From: Halorubrum lipolyticum DSM 21995
GTDB taxonomy: Archaea; Halobacteriota; Halobacteria; Halobacteriales; Haloferacaceae
NCBI RefSeq assembly: GCF_000337375.1
Contig: NZ_AOJG01000006.1
Span: forward strand, 76,020 to 116,945
Length of the DNA stretch: 40,926 bases
Direction of reading: 5' to 3'
Shown: one piece after another, positions 15,714-24,960 of the stretch
Numbering within the stretch: the first letter of the stretch is position 1
Layout: every line of letters starts with the position of its first letter
The notes under the pieces: generated by a model
What the model saw: the letters and a program-made list of their open reading frames with translations, nothing else
What the model was told of the DNA's origin: nothing
Databases searched by the model: none
Program-made: the position numbers and the translations under genes

Positions 15714-16175
15714 TCAGTCCTCCTCGAGGTAGTCGACGACGAGCACGGGCACGTGCGTGGAGCGCAGTGTCCGCTCGGTGACGCTCCCGAGGAGCGCGCG
15801 GCGGACGCCGGCGCGCCCGTGGCTCCCCATCACGATGAGGTCGATATCGTGGTTCTCGGCGTAGTCGCCGATCACTTTGTGCGGCCGGCCGCCGGAGACG
15901 TGTTCGACGATATCGACGCCGCGTTCGGCTCCGCGATCGGCGACCACGCCGGTCGCCTCGTCGGCCTGCTCTTTCAGCTCTCCCATCTCCTCGAACCGAC
16001 CCTGTTTGAGCCGGTCGACCTGTTCGGTCCCGAGACTGAAGTTCACCGAGTCGATGTCGACCACGTACAGCGCGTGGACCTCGGCGTCATACTTCTCCGC
16101 GAGGTCGAGCGCGTGGTCGACGGCGGCCTCTGCGACATCGCTTCCGTCCGTGGGGACGAGGATTCGGTCGTACAT
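15714..16175 (-). CDS. Universal stress protein (UspA family)
   Basis: A 153-residue ATP-binding UspA protein. The start MYDRILVPTDGSDVAEAA and the nucleotide motif G-x2-G-x9-G-S (GSHGRAGVRRALLGS) place it in the ATP-binding class. Its ATG overlaps the TAA of the symporter large subunit by one base (TAATG), so it is translationally coupled to the transporter. In many haloarchaea UspA proteins lie next to sodium or acetate symporters and probably tune them; that link is inference here. Confidence 0.95.
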   Translation of the reverse strand: MYDRILVPTDGSDVAEAAVDHALDLAEKYDAEVHALYVVDIDSVNFSLGTEQVDRLKQGRFEEMGELKEQADEATGVVADRGAERGVDIVEHVSGGRPHKVIGDYAENHDIDLIVMGSHGRAGVRRALLGSVTERTLRSTHVPVLVVDYLEED

Positions 16176-17905
16176 TATCGCTCCTCCGTGGCTTCGTCGT
16201 CGTCAACTGCGCGGCCCCCATCTGTTGCGACGTCCTCGCCGCCGTCGGCGACGACGTCCTCGGCGGTCTCCTGCTGTCCCATCGGTTCGGGACTGTGACA
16301 CTGCCGCACGATCCGCTTCGTCTCGAGCGACGGCTCGTCGGTCGCCATCGAGACGGCGATGGTGACGACGAACACGACCGGGAGCGTGATGAGCGCAGAG
16401 CCGATTGCGGGCATCCACGTCGCCAGCCCCGCCGACAGCGGCGCCTCGAGACCGCCGACGTAGTTCGGCACGATCTCGTTGATCATCGGGATCGACCAGA
16501 GCGTCAGCCCGGTCGTCATGCCGGCGAGCGCTCCCTGCCGATTGGCGTTCTCCCACCACATGCCGAGGAAGAACATCGGGAACAGGACGGAGCCGGCGAG
16601 CGAGAACGCGTATCCCACGAGCGCCGCGATCGACGACGCGGGATTGAGCGCGGCCAGCGTGGTCAGCGCGCCGAGCGCGACGATCGAGAGGCGGCCGACG
16701 AGGATCTGCTGGCGCTGCGTCGCGTCCTCGTTGATGATGTTGGTGTAGATGTCGTGGCTGATCGCCGAGGAGCCGGCGATGAACAGCCCGGCGACCGTCG
16801 CGATCGCCGCGGCGATACCGCCCGCCGCGACGATGCCGACGAACCAGTCCGGGAGCCCGGACAGCTGCGTCGCCAGCACGACGATGACCTCGCTGGCCGC
16901 GCTCGTCATGCCGGGGTCGCCGTACGTCGCGCCGACGTTCTGGGTGTAGAGGTCGGTGCCAAACGCCGCGAACGCCGGGGCGCTCCAGTAGAGGATACAG
17001 ATGAAGAACAGGCCCCAGACCGTCGACCAGCGGGCCGTCCGCTCGCTCTCGACCGTGTAGAACCGGACGAGCACGTGCGGGAGCCCGCAGGTGCCGACGA
17101 TCAGCGAGAACGTCGTGGCGACCCAGAGGTAGTAGCTCGACGAGGCGAACGGCTCGGAGAACTCGCTACCGAGCTCGCTGATGAGCATTCCGTACTCGAG
17201 CTGCGGCAGCACCGTGGAGTAGCCGTTGGTGTAGCCGACGACGAACAGCCCCACGACGAACGCGAGGATGAGGATGACGTACTGGACCGCCTGGTTCTTC
17301 GTGGCGCCCAACATCCCGGACAGCGTCAGGTAGCCGACGGTGACGACCATCATCGCGACGACCATCACCTGGTACCCGTCGAGGCCGGGGATGAGACCGC
17401 CGTAATCGCCGAAGATGTACAGGCCGACGAGCGCCATCCCCTTCGCCTGCCCGATGGCGTAGACGAAGCCGATGAGGAACGTCGTCACCGCCGCGATGGC
17501 GCGCGCGGTGTCGGAGTTGAACCGGTCGCCGACGAAGTCCGGCGCCGTGTACTTCCCGAACCGGCGCAGCTGCGCGGCGAGGAAGATGAGCAGGATGAAG
17601 TATCCCGTCGTCCAGCCGACGACGTACACGAGCCCGTAGAACCCCGCGAGCGCGATCGACGCCGCCATGCCGAGGTACGAGGCGGCCGACATCCAATTCG
17701 CCCCGATCGCCATCCCGTTCTCGACGTTCCCGATGGAACGGCCGGCGACCCACATGTTCTCGGTGTCGGCGACGCGGAAGACGAACCCGATCGTGAGGAA
17801 CAGCCCCAACATCGCGATCACGAGGACCGCCGGCGCCAGCTTGAACGAGATGTCGAGCGCCTCCGGGAGGAGGTCGCTCTGCAGGAGGAGCGAACTCCCC
17901 GTCAT
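16175..17905 (-). CDS. Sodium:solute symporter (SSS family), acetate-permease-like large subunit
   Basis: A 576-residue integral membrane transporter with about 13 hydrophobic helices. The SSS signatures AGRSIGNVENGMAIGANWMSAASYLGMA and, in the centre, GTCGLPHVLVRFYTV are clear; the closest class is the cation/acetate symporter ActP. It starts by overlapping the DUF4212 small subunit by 4 nt (ATGA) and ends overlapping uspA. Its acidic C-terminal tail has DGG-type repeats similar to the N-terminal tail of the small subunit. Acetate as substrate is inferred from the neighbouring acs genes; pyruvate or propionate are alternatives. Confidence 0.94.
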   Translation of the reverse strand: MTGSSLLLQSDLLPEALDISFKLAPAVLVIAMLGLFLTIGFVFRVADTENMWVAGRSIGNVENGMAIGANWMSAASYLGMAASIALAGFYGLVYVVGWTTGYFILLIFLAAQLRRFGKYTAPDFVGDRFNSDTARAIAAVTTFLIGFVYAIGQAKGMALVGLYIFGDYGGLIPGLDGYQVMVVAMMVVTVGYLTLSGMLGATKNQAVQYVILILAFVVGLFVVGYTNGYSTVLPQLEYGMLISELGSEFSEPFASSSYYLWVATTFSLIVGTCGLPHVLVRFYTVESERTARWSTVWGLFFICILYWSAPAFAAFGTDLYTQNVGATYGDPGMTSAASEVIVVLATQLSGLPDWFVGIVAAGGIAAAIATVAGLFIAGSSAISHDIYTNIINEDATQRQQILVGRLSIVALGALTTLAALNPASSIAALVGYAFSLAGSVLFPMFFLGMWWENANRQGALAGMTTGLTLWSIPMINEIVPNYVGGLEAPLSAGLATWMPAIGSALITLPVVFVVTIAVSMATDEPSLETKRIVRQCHSPEPMGQQETAEDVVADGGEDVATDGGRAVDDDEATEER

Positions 17906-18405
17906 TCGTCGGACCCCCCGTCGGCCGCCGCGACCCCGGCACCGCTCTTACTCTCCGCGACGTCGGCGTGGTCGATACCGTACTTCTCGTCGAGCGCGTC
18001 CCGCTTGCGCGAGTACCAGAACGCTAAGATTAGCGCGCTGGTCGGGGCGCCGAACGCGACGAGGAAGTAGTGAAGCGGGAAGCCCAAGATCGGCATCTGG
18101 CTCGTCATCGGACCGGGCGCGATCCGCGTCAGGGTCACCGGTCCCCACACCGCGAGGACCCAGACGGCGAACCCCGACCAGACGATGCGGAGGTGATCGC
18201 GCATATACGGCGTGCTCGGATTGAGGATGTTCACCTCCGCTCCGAGGTAGTCGGTGTCGTTGTGCTCCTGTGCCGCGCCCCTGGCGACGCCGCCGTCGGT
18301 GGCCGCGTCGTCGGCTGCACGGCCACCGTCGGTGACCGCGTCGTCGGCTGCGCGGCCCCCGTCGGTGACCGCGTCGCCCGAATTACGTGAGCTATTATCT
18401 GTCAT
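17902..18405 (-). CDS. DUF4212 family symporter small subunit
   Basis: A 167-residue protein with two membrane helices (about 72-95, FAVWVLAVWGPVTLT, and 105-130, FPLHYFLVAFGAPTSALILAFWYS) preceded by the conserved NPSTPYMRDHLRIVW and followed by RKRDALDEKYGID, which identify DUF4212. This family pairs with SSS permeases as an accessory subunit. The N-terminal 45 residues are a low-complexity extension with an 11-residue repeat DAVTDGGRAAD, not part of the usual domain. A TATA-like GCATAAAC (18433-18440) lies about 31 nt upstream of the ATG. First gene of the transporter operon. Confidence 0.93.
   Translation of the reverse strand: MTDNSSRNSGDAVTDGGRAADDAVTDGGRAADDAATDGGVARGAAQEHNDTDYLGAEVNILNPSTPYMRDHLRIVWSGFAVWVLAVWGPVTLTRIAPGPMTSQMPILGFPLHYFLVAFGAPTSALILAFWYSRKRDALDEKYGIDHADVAESKSGAGVAAADGGSDE
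18293..18380 (-). repeat. 33-nt tandem repeat in the DUF4212 gene
   Basis: Two complete 33-nt units (18293-18325, 18326-18358) and a partial third (18359-18380) encode the 11-residue motif DAVTDGGRAAD in the cytosolic N-terminal tail. The 13-nt core ctgcgcggccccc recurs near 16207-16219 in the tail of the partner permease gene, so the two genes share related repeat DNA. Confidence 0.8.
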
Positions 18406-18519: not shown

Positions 18520-20514
18520 CTACTCGCTCTTCGCTTTCTGCTGGATCTCCTCGACGATCTCCGGGTTCCGGAGCGTGCTGGTGTTACCCAGCTCCTTGCC
18601 GTCGGCGATGTTCTCAAGCAGGCGGCGCATGATCTTCCCCGAGCGGGTCTTCGGCAGGTCCGGCGTGAACACGACCTGCTCCGGCCGGGCGATCGGGCCG
18701 ATGGCGTCCTCGACGCCCGCGACGATCGCGTCGCGGAGCTCGTCGTTGCCCTCGTACCCGTCCTCGGTCGTCACGTACGCGTAGACGGCCTCGCCTTTGA
18801 TGTCGTGGTCGCCGCCGACCACGGCCGCCTCCGCGACGCCCTCGACGCCGACGATGGCGGACTCGATCTCCATCGTCCCCAGCCGGTGGCCGGAGACGTT
18901 GAGCACGTCGTCGACGCGACCGAGCACGGTGATGTAGCCGTCCTCGTCGATCTTGGCGCCGTCCTCCGGGAAGTACACCCAGTCCTCGGGGTCGTCGCTG
19001 TCGGTGTCCGAGTACTCCGCCCAGTACTCGTCGATGTACCGTTCGTCGTTGTTGTACAGCGTCCGGAGCATCCCGGGCCACGGCTTCTGTACCGTGAGGT
19101 AGCCGGCCTTCCCCGGCTCTACCTCGTCGCCGAGCGTGTCGAGGATCTGTACGTCGAGCCCCGGGAGCGGCGGTCCGGCCGCCCCGGGCTTCATGTCCTT
19201 GATACCGGGCAGCGTCGTCACCATCATGCCGCCGGTCTCGGTCTGCCACCACGTGTCGACGATCGGGCACTCCTCGTCCCCGATGTGCTTGTAGTACCAC
19301 TTCCACGCGCGCGGGTTGATCGGCTCGCCGACCGTGCCGAGCAGCCGCAGCGAGGAGAGGTCGTGGGCGTCGGGGTACTCCGCGCCCCACTTCATGAACG
19401 CCCGGATGGCGGTGGGCGCGGTGTACAGCTGGGTCGCGTCGTGCTCCTCGACGATCTCCCAGAGGCGGTCGCGCTCCGGGTGATCGGGCGTCCCCTCGTA
19501 CATCATCGTCGTCGTCCCGAGCGCGAGCGGCCCGTAGACGATGTAGGAGTGACCCGTGATCCAGCCGATGTCGGCCGAACAGAAGTACGTGTCATCCGGC
19601 TTGATGTCGAGGACCGACTGCGAGGTCCACGACACCCACGAGAGGTAGCCGCCGGTCGTGTGTTTCACGCCCTTCGGCTTCCCCGTCGTCCCCGAGGTGT
19701 ACATCAGGAACAGCATGTCCTCGGCGTCGCGGGTGACCGGCTCGACCTCGGCGCCCTCGTGGTCCGCCACGAGGTCGCCGTAGTCGATCTGGTCGTCGCC
19801 GAGGTCGTGACCGAAGCCGTCGCCGTTCGGCCCGAGTCGGTCGACGACGACCGTGGTCGTGTCGTGCTCGACGCCCGCGAGCCCCTCGTTGGCCTTGTCG
19901 AGGTGGTCGAGGGGGTCGCCGCGCCGGTAGTAGCCGTCGCAGGTGACGAGGTACTCCGACTCCGCGGAGTTCATCCGCGTCGCGAGCGCGTCCGCCGAGA
20001 ACCCGGCGAAGACGACGCTGTGCGGCGCGCCGATCCGGGCGCACGCCAGCATCGCGATCGGCAGCTCCGGGATCATCGGCATGTACATCGTCACCACGTC
20101 GTCCTCCTCGACGCCCTGCTCGCGGAGCGCGGCCGCGAACTCGTTCACCTCTCGGTGCAGCTCCTCGTACGTGTACGTGCGGTCGTCCTCGTCGACCGGC
20201 TCGCCGACCCACTCGATCGCGGCCTCGTCGCCGCGCTCGTCGAGGTGTCGGTCGAGGCAGTTGGCCGACGCGTTCAGCTCGCCGCCGGTGAACCACTCGT
20301 AGAAGGGAGGGTTGCTGTCGTCCAGCACCTGATCGTAGTCCGTCTCCCAGTCGAGCAGATCGGCGGCCGCCTCCCAGCACTCCGGCCAGTTCTCCTCGAA
20401 CTCGTCGTAGACGCCGGGATCCGACACGTTCGCCTGTTCGACGAACGACTCCGGCGGCTCGAACACCTCCTGCTCTGCGAGTCTCGCTTCCAGTTGACCG
20501 TCTCCCTCTGTCAT
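18520..20514 (-). CDS. acs: Acetyl-CoA synthetase
   Basis: AMP-forming synthetase converting acetate, ATP and CoA to acetyl-CoA in the cytoplasm. The 664-residue protein has the ANL-family motifs: YTSGTTGKPKGVKHTTGGYL (P-loop-like), VDTWWQTETGG (A5), YTVLGRVDDVLNVSGHRLGT-type hinge and the C-terminal LPKTRSGKIMRRLL, whose lysine is the usual catalytic and acetylation site. Length matches bacterial Acs. The start at 20514 is backed by GTTTAAG about 34 nt upstream; longer in-frame extensions cross the next gene. Upstream of the symporter operon and downstream of the integrase-like/Bat regulator. Confidence 0.97.
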   Translation of the reverse strand: MTEGDGQLEARLAEQEVFEPPESFVEQANVSDPGVYDEFEENWPECWEAAADLLDWETDYDQVLDDSNPPFYEWFTGGELNASANCLDRHLDERGDEAAIEWVGEPVDEDDRTYTYEELHREVNEFAAALREQGVEEDDVVTMYMPMIPELPIAMLACARIGAPHSVVFAGFSADALATRMNSAESEYLVTCDGYYRRGDPLDHLDKANEGLAGVEHDTTTVVVDRLGPNGDGFGHDLGDDQIDYGDLVADHEGAEVEPVTRDAEDMLFLMYTSGTTGKPKGVKHTTGGYLSWVSWTSQSVLDIKPDDTYFCSADIGWITGHSYIVYGPLALGTTTMMYEGTPDHPERDRLWEIVEEHDATQLYTAPTAIRAFMKWGAEYPDAHDLSSLRLLGTVGEPINPRAWKWYYKHIGDEECPIVDTWWQTETGGMMVTTLPGIKDMKPGAAGPPLPGLDVQILDTLGDEVEPGKAGYLTVQKPWPGMLRTLYNNDERYIDEYWAEYSDTDSDDPEDWVYFPEDGAKIDEDGYITVLGRVDDVLNVSGHRLGTMEIESAIVGVEGVAEAAVVGGDHDIKGEAVYAYVTTEDGYEGNDELRDAIVAGVEDAIGPIARPEQVVFTPDLPKTRSGKIMRRLLENIADGKELGNTSTLRNPEIVEEIQQKAKSE

Positions 20515-20624
20515 GGTACGCTCTGTAGCAAACCGATCTCGCCCCTTAAACGATGGCGCTAAATACGAAAAATCGTGATAGATTCGCGCGGCGATTCGGA
20601 GCGCCGCGACCGCCCGGGACCGAC

Positions 20625-22430
20625 TCAGCCCTGATCGAGGCGCCGGGCCCGCCGCCCGTCCTCGAAGAGCTCGTCGAGCAGCCGGCGCTGGGCCTTCCGG
20701 AGGTGGTTGTGGAACGTCGGCGAGGAGACGTCCATGGCGTCGGCGACCTCCTCCGCGGTGCTCCCCCGCGGCCAGTCGAAGTACCCCCCGTGGTACGCGG
20801 CCGACAGCGCGGCCCACTGGCGGTCGGTGAACCGGTCCGCGACCCCCTCCCGGAGCGAGTCCTCGCTCCGCGGCGCCCGCGCCACCGACTCCTTGCTCGC
20901 GAGCCGCGCGTCGTCGAAGGCGTCCCGGAACCCCTCGGCGACGGGGCGCACGTCGGCGCCCTCCGGGAGGTCGGCGACCACTCGGACCCTCCCGTCTTCC
21001 GCGGTCGCGTCGCGGACGGTCGCGCCGTGCTCGGTGAGGGTCCGGACCGCGGACCCGCCCGCAACGCGCGCGGACACGTCGCAGCCGTCCTCGCGCGTCT
21101 CGATCACGCGGAGGTCGGAGACGCCGGACGCGCCCGCGACCGCGTCGGCCAGCGCCTGCGGCCGCGCCCCCTCGACGGAGAGGTAGAAGCGGGAGGCGTC
21201 GTCGTCGACGGCCACCGTGGACGCCAGCTCGATCCGACAGCCGAGCGTCGCGCTCGCGCGGGCGAGGAACGCCCCCTCGTCGCCGGTGTGGAACTCCACC
21301 TCGGTCACCGCGTCGGAGTGGAGCAGCTCCCGCCAGCGCTCCGCGGTCACGGCCCACCCGAGACACCGTCCGAGCGCCGCGATCTCTCGGCGCTCGACCG
21401 ACGAGACGGACGGTACGGTTTCGGAAGAGGACTCCCCGCCGGCGACCACGCACAGCGCGCCGTGGGTCACGTCGCGGTACCGGAGGGGTACCGCGACCGC
21501 CGGTCGACCGGCGGTCGCGGGCGATCCCGCAGTCGATATCGCTTCTTCCTCCTCGACCGCCTCGCGCCACGGCCCGTCGCCGTCGACGCCGCGGTCGACG
21601 AGCGTCTCTCGGTCGACGCCGGCCGCGCCCGCGATCTCGACGCGCCCGCGGTCCCCCGTCCCGCGGACGACCCACGCCTCGGCCCAGCGGTCGGACTCGG
21701 TCACGCCGTCGGGAACCGCCGCGAGGGGTGTCGCTCGGTCGTCGCCGTCCGCGAGCGCCTCGAACCCTCCGAGGGCGGTCGGCGCCGACTCGTCCGCCGG
21801 CCCGTCCGCCGACCCACCCCGACCGCCGGCGATCGCCGAGGCGATCGCCTCGCCGTCAAGCGGTCCGAGGTACCCGTCGAGCGTCGCCATCGTCTCCCAC
21901 CCCCCGGCCTCGCGGACCGCGTGCGGGTCGACGCCGCGGTCGGCGAGGAGCCGCCGCGCGAAGGTCCGTCGGAGGTCGCGAGGGGTCACGTCCGGGCCGA
22001 CGAGACCGTCGCTCCGCGCCGCCGCGCGCTCGGCGGTCTCGCTCACGATCATCTGGACCCGACGGGGCGACACGTCGACGAACGGCTCGGACTCGCCGAG
22101 GTCGGCGCTCTCGGCGTACCGCCGCATTTCCGCCGCCAGCGACGCCGGAATCGCCGTCTCGCGGTCGATCCCGCTTCGGTCTCGCGGCGCGGGCTCCGTC
22201 TCGGGAGCGCCGTCGGTTTCTCCCCCTCCCGCCGTGTCCTCCGACGGGACCGCGAGGATTGAGAGGTCCGCGTCGCCCTCCGTCTCGCGGAGGTGTCGCG
22301 GGGCGACGCGCGTGATCTCCCCGGTCCGGAGCCCCGCCTCGCCGCCGAGGCGGACGACCAGCGCGGCGCGGTACGTCTCCGCCGCCGTCACGAGCGCCTC
22401 GTACGCGTCGGCGTCCACTCCCTGGTCCAT
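20625..22430 (-). CDS. Bat-type regulator with N-terminal tyrosine-recombinase-like domain
   Basis: A 601-residue fusion. Residues about 1-195 resemble the catalytic domain of tyrosine recombinases: R35 in GEAGLRTGEI, RDLRR (R151, R154) where the family has H-x-x-R, GGW (W178) and Y187 in LDGYLGP. Next is a GAF-like region (about 230-385), a BAT domain (about 395-530, VTEVEFHTGDEGAFLARASATLGC), and the HTH-10 DNA-binding domain at the end (FTDRQWAALSAAYHGGYFDWPRGSTAEEVADAMDVSSPTFHNHLRKAQ). The HTH-10/BAT pair is that of bacterio-opsin activator. It lies 110 bp upstream of acs and likely controls acetate genes (inference). TTATTTC about 30 nt upstream supports the ATG at 22430. Confidence 0.9.
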   Translation of the reverse strand: MDQGVDADAYEALVTAAETYRAALVVRLGGEAGLRTGEITRVAPRHLRETEGDADLSILAVPSEDTAGGGETDGAPETEPAPRDRSGIDRETAIPASLAAEMRRYAESADLGESEPFVDVSPRRVQMIVSETAERAAARSDGLVGPDVTPRDLRRTFARRLLADRGVDPHAVREAGGWETMATLDGYLGPLDGEAIASAIAGGRGGSADGPADESAPTALGGFEALADGDDRATPLAAVPDGVTESDRWAEAWVVRGTGDRGRVEIAGAAGVDRETLVDRGVDGDGPWREAVEEEEAISTAGSPATAGRPAVAVPLRYRDVTHGALCVVAGGESSSETVPSVSSVERREIAALGRCLGWAVTAERWRELLHSDAVTEVEFHTGDEGAFLARASATLGCRIELASTVAVDDDASRFYLSVEGARPQALADAVAGASGVSDLRVIETREDGCDVSARVAGGSAVRTLTEHGATVRDATAEDGRVRVVADLPEGADVRPVAEGFRDAFDDARLASKESVARAPRSEDSLREGVADRFTDRQWAALSAAYHGGYFDWPRGSTAEEVADAMDVSSPTFHNHLRKAQRRLLDELFEDGRRARRLDQG

Positions 22431-22668
22431 TCGTTTCGTATACTCTTCAAAATCCGAAATAACTCTTTCGCCGTAGATCGGGGTTTAAAAGGACAGTATC
22501 CGGATAGCGTCGGGAGATCCTGGACAGATGCGGTCGTCTCTGTGCTCACTCTCACAGAGCTGTTTCGCTTTCACAGAAAAAGCCGAAAAGAGAGTGTCGA
22601 ATCTCTCCCCGTGACAGCCGCTCCGCGTCCGGGCGGCTCAACCGTTACTCCGCGTCCGTCCGGACTGC
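22431..22668. other. Intergenic region with hairpin and TCACAGA repeats
   Basis: Holds the regulator's promoter near 22430-22465 and, further right, a 7-bp stem CTCTGTG/CACAGAG at 22538-22559, a repeated TCACAGA (22552, 22571) and a GAGAG/CTCTC stem near 22590-22607. TTTAAAAG at 22492-22499 could drive a plus-strand transcript through these structures. No coding potential is convincing. Confidence 0.4.
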
Positions 22669-22978: not shown

Positions 22979-24937
22979 TTACTTTTTGCGGACCGCAGAC
23001 TCGATCTCGCCGACGACTTCGGGGTTGCGCAGGGCGCTCACGTCGCCGAACTCGTCGCCGCGGGCGATGTCCTCCAGCAGGCGGCGCATGATCTTCCCCG
23101 AGCGGGTCTTCGGCAGGTCCGGCGTGAACACGATCCGGTCGGGGCGCGCCACGTCGCCGACCGCGTGCGCCAGCCGCTCGCCGATCGCCTCGCGGAGGGA
23201 CTCGTCGGGGTCGACGTCGCCTCGAGTCGTCACGTACGCGACGATCCGCCCGTCGTCGTCGCCGACGACCGCGGCCTCGGTGACGCCGTCGGCCTCGACG
23301 ATGGCCGACTCCAGCTCCGCGGTGTTGAACCGGTGCGTCCGAACGTTGATCACGTCGTCGACGCGGCCGAGGATCGTGACGTAGCCGTCCCCGTCGACGG
23401 TGGCGCCGTCGCCGGTGCGGTACCGCCACCCGTCCTCGCCCTCCAGCCAGTACTCCCGCCGGTACCGCTCGTCGCCCTCGCGGAGCCCGCGGAGCATCCC
23501 GGGCCACGGCGCGGCGATCGTGAGGTACCCCGGCTCGCCGGGTTCGACGGGTTCGCCGTCCTCGTCGACGACGCGCGCGTCGATCCCCGGCAGCGGCGGG
23601 CCGACCTTCCCGGGCTTCATCGGCGTGACCCCCGGCAGGGTCGCGAGGGAGATGGCGCCCGTCTCGGTCTGCCACCACGTGTCGACGATCGGCGCCTCCC
23701 CGCCGCCGACGTGCTCGCGGTACCAGCGCCACGCCTTCGAGGTGATCGACTCGCCGACGGTCCCCAGCAGGCGGATCGACGACAGGTCGTGGGCGTCGGG
23801 GTACTCCGCGCCCCACTTCATAAACGAGCGGATCGCGGTGGGTGAGGTGTAGAAGACGCTGACGGCGTTGCGCTCGATCAGGTCCCACACGCGGTCGCGG
23901 TCGGGGTAGTCGGGCGACCCCTCGTAGAGGACGCTGGTCGTCCCGACGGAGAGGGGACCGTAGACGCCGTAGGAGTGGCCCGTGATCCAGCCGATGTCGG
24001 CGGCGCACCAGTAGGTGTCGTCCGGGCGCACGTCGAGGACGTTCCGGGTCGTCCACGCGACGTGCGCGAGGTAGCCGCCGGTCGCGTGCTCGACGCCCTT
24101 CGGACGCCCCGTCGTCCCGGAGGTGTACATCACGAAGAGGAGGTCGGTGGCGTCGCGCGCGACGGGCTCGACCGTCTCCCCGTCGTGCGCCGCCACGACC
24201 GCCTCGTACTCGTGTTCGTCGTCGCCGAGCGGCACGTCGAGCGCGTCGCCGAGCCGGTCGACGACCACCGTCGCCGAGAGGTCGGCCTCGGCCCGGAGCC
24301 GGGCGTTGTCCGCCTTCGACTTCTGGTTGAAGGCGTCCTCCCGCCGGTAGTAGCCGTCGCAGGTGACGAGGTACTCCGAGTCGGCGGCGTCGATCCGGGT
24401 CGCGAGCGCCTCCGCCGACAGCCCCGCGAAGACGACGTTGTGCGGCGCGCCGATCCGGGCACAGGCCAGCATCGCGATCGGCAGCTCCGGGACCATCGGG
24501 AGGTACAGCGTCACCACGTCGTCCTCCTCGACCCCCAGGTCGCGGAGCCCGGCAGCGAGCGCGTTCACCTCTCGGTGGAGGTCGAGGTAGGTGTACGACC
24601 GACGCTCCCCCCGTTTGCCGAACCAGCGGATCGCGAGCTGGTTCCGCCGCTCGTCGAGGTGACGGTCGACGCAGTTGGCCGCGGCGTTGAGCCGCCCGTC
24701 CGGGAACCACTGATAAAACGGCGGATTCTCGTCGTCCAGCACCGTCTCGTAGGGGCGCTCCCAGTCGAGCAGGTCGGCGGCGCGGCGCCACGCCTCGGGC
24801 CCTTCCTCGGCGAACGCCTCGTATATCTCCGGGTCGCTCGCGACGGCCCGGTCGCTGAACGCGGCGGGCGGCTCGACGACCTCGTCGCCGGCGGCGGTCC
24901 CGTCCGCCCGCCGGCCGTCGACTCCGGCGTAATCCAT
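22979..24937 (-). CDS. acs: Second acetyl-CoA synthetase-like acyl-CoA synthetase
   Basis: A 652-residue ANL enzyme parallel to the other acs in every motif: YTSGTTGRPKGVEHATGGYL, VDTWWQTETGA and LPKTRSGKIMRRLL, the last almost identical in DNA as well. Overall it is clearly diverged, so it is an old paralogue, possibly for another short-chain acid such as propionate. The ATG at 24937 is chosen because TATA sequence (24961-24969) lies 28 nt upstream; the ATG at 24952 would fall at the transcription start. First gene of the leftward run. Confidence 0.94.
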   Translation of the reverse strand: MDYAGVDGRRADGTAAGDEVVEPPAAFSDRAVASDPEIYEAFAEEGPEAWRRAADLLDWERPYETVLDDENPPFYQWFPDGRLNAAANCVDRHLDERRNQLAIRWFGKRGERRSYTYLDLHREVNALAAGLRDLGVEEDDVVTLYLPMVPELPIAMLACARIGAPHNVVFAGLSAEALATRIDAADSEYLVTCDGYYRREDAFNQKSKADNARLRAEADLSATVVVDRLGDALDVPLGDDEHEYEAVVAAHDGETVEPVARDATDLLFVMYTSGTTGRPKGVEHATGGYLAHVAWTTRNVLDVRPDDTYWCAADIGWITGHSYGVYGPLSVGTTSVLYEGSPDYPDRDRVWDLIERNAVSVFYTSPTAIRSFMKWGAEYPDAHDLSSIRLLGTVGESITSKAWRWYREHVGGGEAPIVDTWWQTETGAISLATLPGVTPMKPGKVGPPLPGIDARVVDEDGEPVEPGEPGYLTIAAPWPGMLRGLREGDERYRREYWLEGEDGWRYRTGDGATVDGDGYVTILGRVDDVINVRTHRFNTAELESAIVEADGVTEAAVVGDDDGRIVAYVTTRGDVDPDESLREAIGERLAHAVGDVARPDRIVFTPDLPKTRSGKIMRRLLEDIARGDEFGDVSALRNPEVVGEIESAVRKK

Positions 24938-24960
24938 GATACTATCTCGCAAGCGAAGGA

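Follow-up and report, generated by a model that had tools for sequence, protein, structure and literature searches.

A degenerate tyrosine-recombinase domain fused to a Bat-type regulator in the acetate gene cluster of haloarchaea, with paired palindromes at its own promoter

Tyrosine recombinases and Bat-type transcriptional activators meet in an architecture already in print as fam30-04, a family of archaeal tyrosine recombinases that Badel et al. 2021 define by its Phage_integrase, BAT and HTH_10 domains, joined in some members by GAF_2 (PMC8371274). In the passages devoted to it fam30-04 is grouped among the integrase families, and catalytic loss, linkage to acetyl-CoA synthetase (acs) genes and operators are not mentioned there (PMC8371274). 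A precedent for a recombinase fold at work in regulation is MrpR/YopR, the master repressor of the Bacillus prophage SPbeta, which has lost recombination and binds DNA (PMC10516654). Bat-type activators such as Bat and DmsR combine BAT, HTH_10 and a GAF-like region. At its N-terminal place Bat carries a PAS/PAC domain (PMC1447603). The protein analysed here, encoded in a 40,926-nucleotide stretch of DNA from Halorubrum lipolyticum DSM 21995 (hereafter the window), has the fam30-04 architecture and resembles the Bat-type activators in its BAT and HTH_10 domains and, less surely, in a GAF-like region, except that a recombinase domain takes the N-terminal place. No report of its link to acs genes, or of the palindromes described below, was found in searches of open-licence papers. 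The features discussed are collected in Table 1.

Table 1. Features of the window, with positions counted from its first letter.
Feature	Position	Strand	Remarks
Sodium:solute (acetate-type) symporter	16175..17905	-	PF00474
DUF4212 protein of transporter pair	17902..18405	-	PF13937
acsA, AMP-forming acetyl-CoA synthetase	18520..20514	-	PF00501, PF13193, PF16177; start inferred
Conserved block, TAG at about -46 and TATA-like TTTA; candidate activator site	20545..20577	-	acsA upstreams, order-wide
Fusion gene: recombinase-like, GAF-like, BAT and HTH_10 domains	20625..22430	-	601 aa, ATG start
HTH_10 domain, aa 534-585	20676..20831	-	PF04967, E 1.7e-19
BAT domain, aa 373-527	20850..21314	-	PF15915, E 2.7e-41
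GAF-like domain, about aa 242-345	21396..21707	-	weak GAF_2 match; alpha/beta elements in AlphaFold2 model
Tyrosine-recombinase catalytic-like domain, aa 1-200, without core-binding domain	21831..22430	-	Pfam, AlphaFold2, VIA
Acidic variable loop, aa 62-87, replacing the beta2-beta3 Lys hairpin	22170..22247	-	dN/dS 0.72, no conserved Lys
Proximal palindrome TTTCG-N16-CGAAA, directly upstream of start codon	22434..22459	.	sequence search
Distal palindrome TTTCG-N16-CGAAA, 129 bp further upstream	22563..22588	.	sequence search
acsB, second acetyl-CoA synthetase, upstream of fusion gene	22979..24952	-	

An initial annotation, made from the letters alone, had proposed that a tyrosine-recombinase-like domain is fused here to a Bat-type HTH-10 regulator, and this fusion is confirmed: PF00589 matches above its Pfam cut-off, and BAT and HTH_10 match as well. 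The Phage_integrase profile search suggested in that annotation returned aa 6-188 (E 2.4e-7; 31.1 bits, the cut-off being 27.1); the GAF_2 match stays under its own cut-off (17.7 against 28.6 bits), with plausible elements for such a domain in the full-length model. Among solved structures, phmmer retrieved the archaeal XerA 4a8e as its single match (E 8e-8), and a profile of 67 orthologous domains matched the same protein at E 2.3e-18 and, this one included, 22 sequences at E <=0.01, mostly Xer, integron and Cre recombinases. Structure prediction, also suggested at the outset, yielded the recombinase fold: the AlphaFold2 model of aa 1-206, with the 67-domain alignment as input, reached a pLDDT of 90.8 and a pTM of 0.85, and its best structural matches were XerA 5hxy (VIA Z 18.2, rmsd 3.8, 164 aligned residues) followed by XerA 4a8e (Z 17.0, rmsd 2.5, 143 aligned). 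The full-length model (pLDDT 85, pTM 0.56) has confident domains in an uncertain relative arrangement. Both Pfam and AlphaFold2 place the catalytic part at the very N-terminus, from residue 6, and the core-binding domain is absent. The model also resembles MrpR, YopR and SroF of phi3T (VIA Z 12.3 to 14.4), and shares with the MrpR-type repressors a recombinase fold whose catalytic residues are lost; MrpR, however, is a phage repressor that keeps the core-binding domain, the Lys and the Tyr (PMC10516654), whereas the haloarchaeal protein has only the catalytic half, fused to GAF-BAT-HTH_10 and encoded in a cellular metabolic cluster.

The catalytic residues were followed through 92 orthologous rows, namely the window protein and 91 loci out of L001-L110. 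The loci excluded were the window's own (L001), duplicate copies of a gene already counted (L103-L110), four that are truncated by a contig end or interrupted by a frame break (L095, L096, L098 and L102), one containing masked sequence, and L084-L088, whose best match is a BAT paralogue without recombinase domain. At L096 (G023:C89) the fusion gene is broken into two frames in the assembly. Glu38, Arg90, Leu153 and Arg154 are each invariant (92/92), Arg35 is found in 85/92 and Trp178 in 89/92, with Tyr in the other three. Position 151, that of the box II His, is His in 6/92, Arg in 42 and Ser in 27, the window protein having Arg. The nucleophile Tyr187 is present in 64/92 orthologues and elsewhere replaced by His (10), Phe (9), Leu (7), Val (1) or Ser (1). 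The initial annotation had placed R35, R151, R154, W178 and Y187 correctly, and the window protein does retain Arg35, Arg154, Trp178 and Tyr187; its statement that the replacement is confined to the box II histidine is true within the R-H-R-W-Y set and fails beyond it, the Lys of the beta2-beta3 hairpin being missing too, with an acidic, fast-changing loop of variable length in its place. Of the conserved Arg and Tyr that it expected in orthologues, the Arg was borne out by position 154 and the Tyr was not, given its state at position 187. In a fusion set of 72 rows (67 rows thinned to <85% identity plus five named plasmid loci) the complete R-H-R-W-Y set occurs in six, and any Lys within aa 56-90 in three, there inside the variable loop, whereas among 69 stand-alone recombinases the Lys of the hairpin stretch is present in 69/69 and R-H-R-W/H-Y in 68/69. 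When mapped on the tree described below, Tyr187 has changed at least 12 times among the fusions. The window protein is itself probably inactive, given the missing Lys, the missing His and the state of its orthologues, and judged by these sequences the fusion protein is almost certainly not a working recombinase.

Loss of catalysis has not been accompanied by decay of the domain. In a sample of the window protein and nine close orthologues (45 pairs), dN/dS was 0.20 for the recombinase domain core, 0.37 for the GAF-like domain, 0.147 for BAT and 0.053 for the HTH, and 0.72 for the acidic loop (44 pairs of the same ten sequences); order-wide, mean pairwise identity is 0.52 in the recombinase domain core as against 0.44 in BAT. 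Since the nucleophile has been lost repeatedly and the domain is otherwise tightly held, a non-catalytic function is most likely, and we are highly confident that this is a degenerate recombinase serving something other than recombination. The initial annotation had offered the reuse of a recombinase fold for DNA binding as one of two readings; fold, catalytic loss, placement in one clade beside catalytically intact stand-alone recombinases and purifying selection all agree with it, the DNA binding itself being the part that we infer.

In sequence, the domain stands closest to stand-alone single-domain recombinases of haloarchaea, about 200-235 aa long, which score 150-203 bits (one at 119) against the fusion profile. 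A second, more distant single-domain group, to which three phage records matched, scores 70-93 bits (one fragment lower), and haloarchaeal Xer-like proteins also fall well below the closest relatives. The 69 stand-alone tree rows cover all these kinds, 11 of 80 having been dropped as duplicates, fragments or weak matches. A quick unconstrained tree rooted on Xer left a few fusions scattered outside the rest, which suggested multiple fusion events; this was dropped, as constraining all 72 fusions to one clade raised the log-likelihood by 25.4 (p-AU 0.883), and one fusion event is therefore the simpler reading. On that simpler reading the recombinase domain would go back to a single capture in an ancestor of the order. 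Stand-alone single-domain recombinases with intact catalytic residues form a haloarchaeal family (L176-L215), one of whose members, L182 (G000:C8:18160-18693), is encoded in the genome of the window itself. Unlike the fusion, they keep Lys, His and Tyr and have neither a regulator part nor a palindrome by the gene. A mobile-element origin by way of L182 was considered and rejected: searches with L182 turned up nothing in phage records and no confirmed match in viral contigs, and one of seven neighbours scanned around it had a Pfam match.

The fusion is widespread in the order and mostly found in one genomic setting. Among 196 relatives, 99 genomes from 10 of the 17 families sampled contain a recombinase-domain match inside a long open frame of at least 298 aa, the shortest being truncated at contig ends or by frame breaks, and a full-length profile run over 294 genomes of the phylum found matches, BAT paralogues included, in 53, every one a member of this order. 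The fusion occurs in the named species Haloferax alexandrinus, Haloferax larsenii, Halococcus dombrowskii, Haladaptatus salinisoli and Halocatena marina, annotated there only as 'bacterio-opsin activator domain-containing protein'. Orthologues of 700-918 aa from several families (L071-L083) carry additional residues that separate the recombinase domain from the GAF/BAT part, and two 674-aa frames with a recombinase match (G118:C14:6156-6671 and G147:C34:4871-5386), from small genomes belonging to another family of the order, are possibly a different fusion. The gene order in the window, all on one strand, is acsB, fusion gene, acsA, DUF4212 gene and SSS symporter gene. In 88 of 96 distinct loci (L102-L110 and L084-L088 being left out of this set) acs genes lie on both sides on the same strand; seven loci have acs on one side only, five of them cut by contig ends, and the single locus with none nearby is also cut. 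In Haloferax volcanii a related cluster of acs7, HVO_A0155, ssf and uspA28 is co-transcribed and acetate-induced (PMC7746861), and HVO_A0157 is a suspected orthologue there, judging by the locus numbers in that report and by Haloferax alexandrinus; none of the open-licence papers searched mentions it by name. From the conserved linkage with acs we consider it likely that the fusion protein regulates the acetate cluster; the earlier claim that it controls the acs genes is upheld to this extent, synteny being its sole support.

Candidate DNA sites became visible in the alignment of the upstream regions, where pairs of TTTCG...CGAAA recur. A scan of the 300 bp ahead of each of the 92 genes gave 92 occurrences of the strict N16 form (70 in 45 loci of the same genus, 22 in 47 other loci), against 5 in the remaining 892,547 bases of these loci. 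Spacings other than N16 are uncommon, N15 excepted, with 11 in other families. The whole 3.4-Mb genome has the strict form at five places, two of them at the fusion promoter; ORFs are present at the other three (L218, L219 and L220). A relaxed form, TTCG-N15/16-CGAA, lies near the start codon in 80/92 loci (mean 0.3 and maximum 3 in 200 shuffles), and both relaxed sites are present in 76/92, one or both being missing in 16/92; among 3251 random pieces from the same loci 88 had at least one relaxed site and two had two or more. The distance between the two sites is mostly 77 to 150 bp, and its best-fitting period is 10.5 bp within the genus (R 0.61 over 18 distinct values, p about 0.001) and 10.4 bp for the remaining families (R 0.64 over 31 values). 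As these significance values ignore shared ancestry, helical phasing of the two sites is suggestive only. Both sites are kept in 52/64 rows with Tyr187 and in 24/28 rows without it, and this persistence in the absence of the nucleophile indicates that the palindromes are not kept for cutting. Nor do they appear to be sites of the stand-alone recombinases or of BAT paralogues: no palindrome was found by the recombinase genes of 69 stand-alone loci (the one match lay 2.6 kb away) or at five BAT/HTH_10 paralogue loci. The stand-alone loci thus lend no support to an ancestral link between domain and site.

The palindromes were also considered as acs-promoter sites and rejected, being present upstream of acsA in 1/87 and of acsB in 1/56 loci; control of acs would therefore need the HTH_10 part. 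A separate motif, TAG-N7..10-TTA, is present in 86/87 acsA upstreams (mean 6.1 and maximum 12 when shuffled), its TAG mostly at -46 and inside a wider conserved block in these 87 loci, immediately ahead of the TATA region. By analogy with the bop gene, which has an upstream activating site and Bat as its activator (PMC1447603), this block is put forward as a candidate for the activator site used by the HTH_10 end. If each domain has its own target, two sorts of site would be expected beside two domains of DNA-binding type, as is the case here.

The fuller palindrome consensus, read by eye from the counts, is GTTTCGG-n-TTT-N6-AAA-n-CCGAAAC, that is, two 11-base arms around 6, and arms flanking a short centre are the build of a recombinase core site. 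The lox site of phage P1 has TTCG, 16 bases and CGAA, a register like that of the fusion-promoter palindrome; since the comparison was made after the palindrome had been seen, and a four-base match in fixed register is expected about once in 256 per site compared, the likeness is a lead, not proof. Cre has its core-binding domain and is catalytically intact, the fusion domain lacks both, and the core-binding half contributes to site recognition in Cre. In the alignment of the fusion domain with Cre (overall identity 19%) Arg123 falls on Cre Arg259, and Arg123-Arg124, the pair that opens the helix aligned with Cre helix J, is invariant in the fusions (92/92); the 80 stand-alone rows have Arg at position 123 in 53 and at position 124 in one. 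Helix J of Cre carries Arg259, which contacts G66 in the C10/G66 pair of lox through a bidentate bond (PMC7438526); in our reading of the numbering, G66 is the G in CGAA.

Taken together, these observations lead us to a reading that we hold to be somewhat probable, namely that of an acetate-cluster regulator with a dead recombinase half binding the palindromes of its own promoter. The fusion protein would regulate transcription of the haloarchaeal cluster for acetate uptake and activation. Its N-terminal domain, the catalytic half of a tyrosine recombinase, would have been captured once and have lost the ability to recombine while keeping a recombinase grip on DNA. It would bind the palindromes with two subunits on each, and Arg123 would read the G of CGAA in the way that Cre Arg259 reads it in lox. 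As the proximal palindrome reaches to the start codon, binding there would repress the gene itself, and the distal palindrome, whole helical turns away, might be bridged to it like two sites in a recombinase synapse. The HTH_10 domain would be left free to act at acs promoters, through the conserved block upstream of acsA, and the GAF/BAT part would sense a signal. That the recombinase-derived domain binds the paired palindromes is, as far as the sequences allow us to judge, about evenly balanced; the fuller proposal, in which a dead synapse serves as a looping autoregulator, the recombinase domain bridging the palindromes, Arg123 reading the base that Cre Arg259 reads and the HTH_10 end working at acs promoters, is tentative and rather doubtful.

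The palindrome could indeed be read by the HTH_10 domain or by another factor. If the N-terminal domain were a dead structural, dimerisation or sensing module, the HTH_10 of the same protein would bind the palindromes, as might be expected from the most constrained part of the protein, from the C-terminal HTH being the recognised DNA-binding part of Bat-type activators (PMC1447603) and from BAT paralogues having other N-terminal regions, a place that in Bat-type regulators is taken by different input domains; a pair of half-sites spaced by two turns would fit a dimeric HTH protein too. We regard this as unlikely, although more serious than the other alternatives, as the five BAT/HTH_10 paralogue loci are without palindrome, the strict site occurs at so few places in a genome with several HTH_10 genes, Arg123-Arg124 is invariant just where the helix aligned with Cre helix J begins, and the lox register would have to be a coincidence. 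It is improbable that the palindromes serve some other regulator while the recombinase-like domain acts elsewhere: there is no direct tie of site to protein and the acsA and acsB upstreams lack the sites, but the palindrome pair is co-conserved with the fusion gene across families, and two of the five strict sites of the genome at this very promoter fit self-binding best.

The other reading of the initial annotation, a regulator still able to cut and rejoin DNA, which might invert or exchange DNA at the paired palindromes to switch expression, draws on the four catalytic residues retained in the window protein, on the six orthologues with R-H-R-W-Y and on two recombinase-like sites side by side. 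The missing hairpin Lys, the rarity of the His, the loss of Tyr in 28/92 rows, most of which keep both palindromes, and the uniform orientation of the acs neighbours, none of which lies on the opposite strand in any of the 96 loci, speak against it and leave an active recombinase hardly credible. Invertible DNA was likewise rejected as an explanation, given that uniform orientation and inverted repeats that are short and operator-like, not the ends of a switched segment.

The fam30-04 proteins that have been counted as integrases are very probably not integrases. If the reading favoured here, a dead recombinase half acting on its own promoter, is true, the fusion would be a cellular, order-wide case of a recombinase turned metabolic regulator, in which the recombinase way of reading, and perhaps of pairing, DNA sites has been kept; the candidate sites supplied here make the idea testable in a genetically tractable haloarchaeon.
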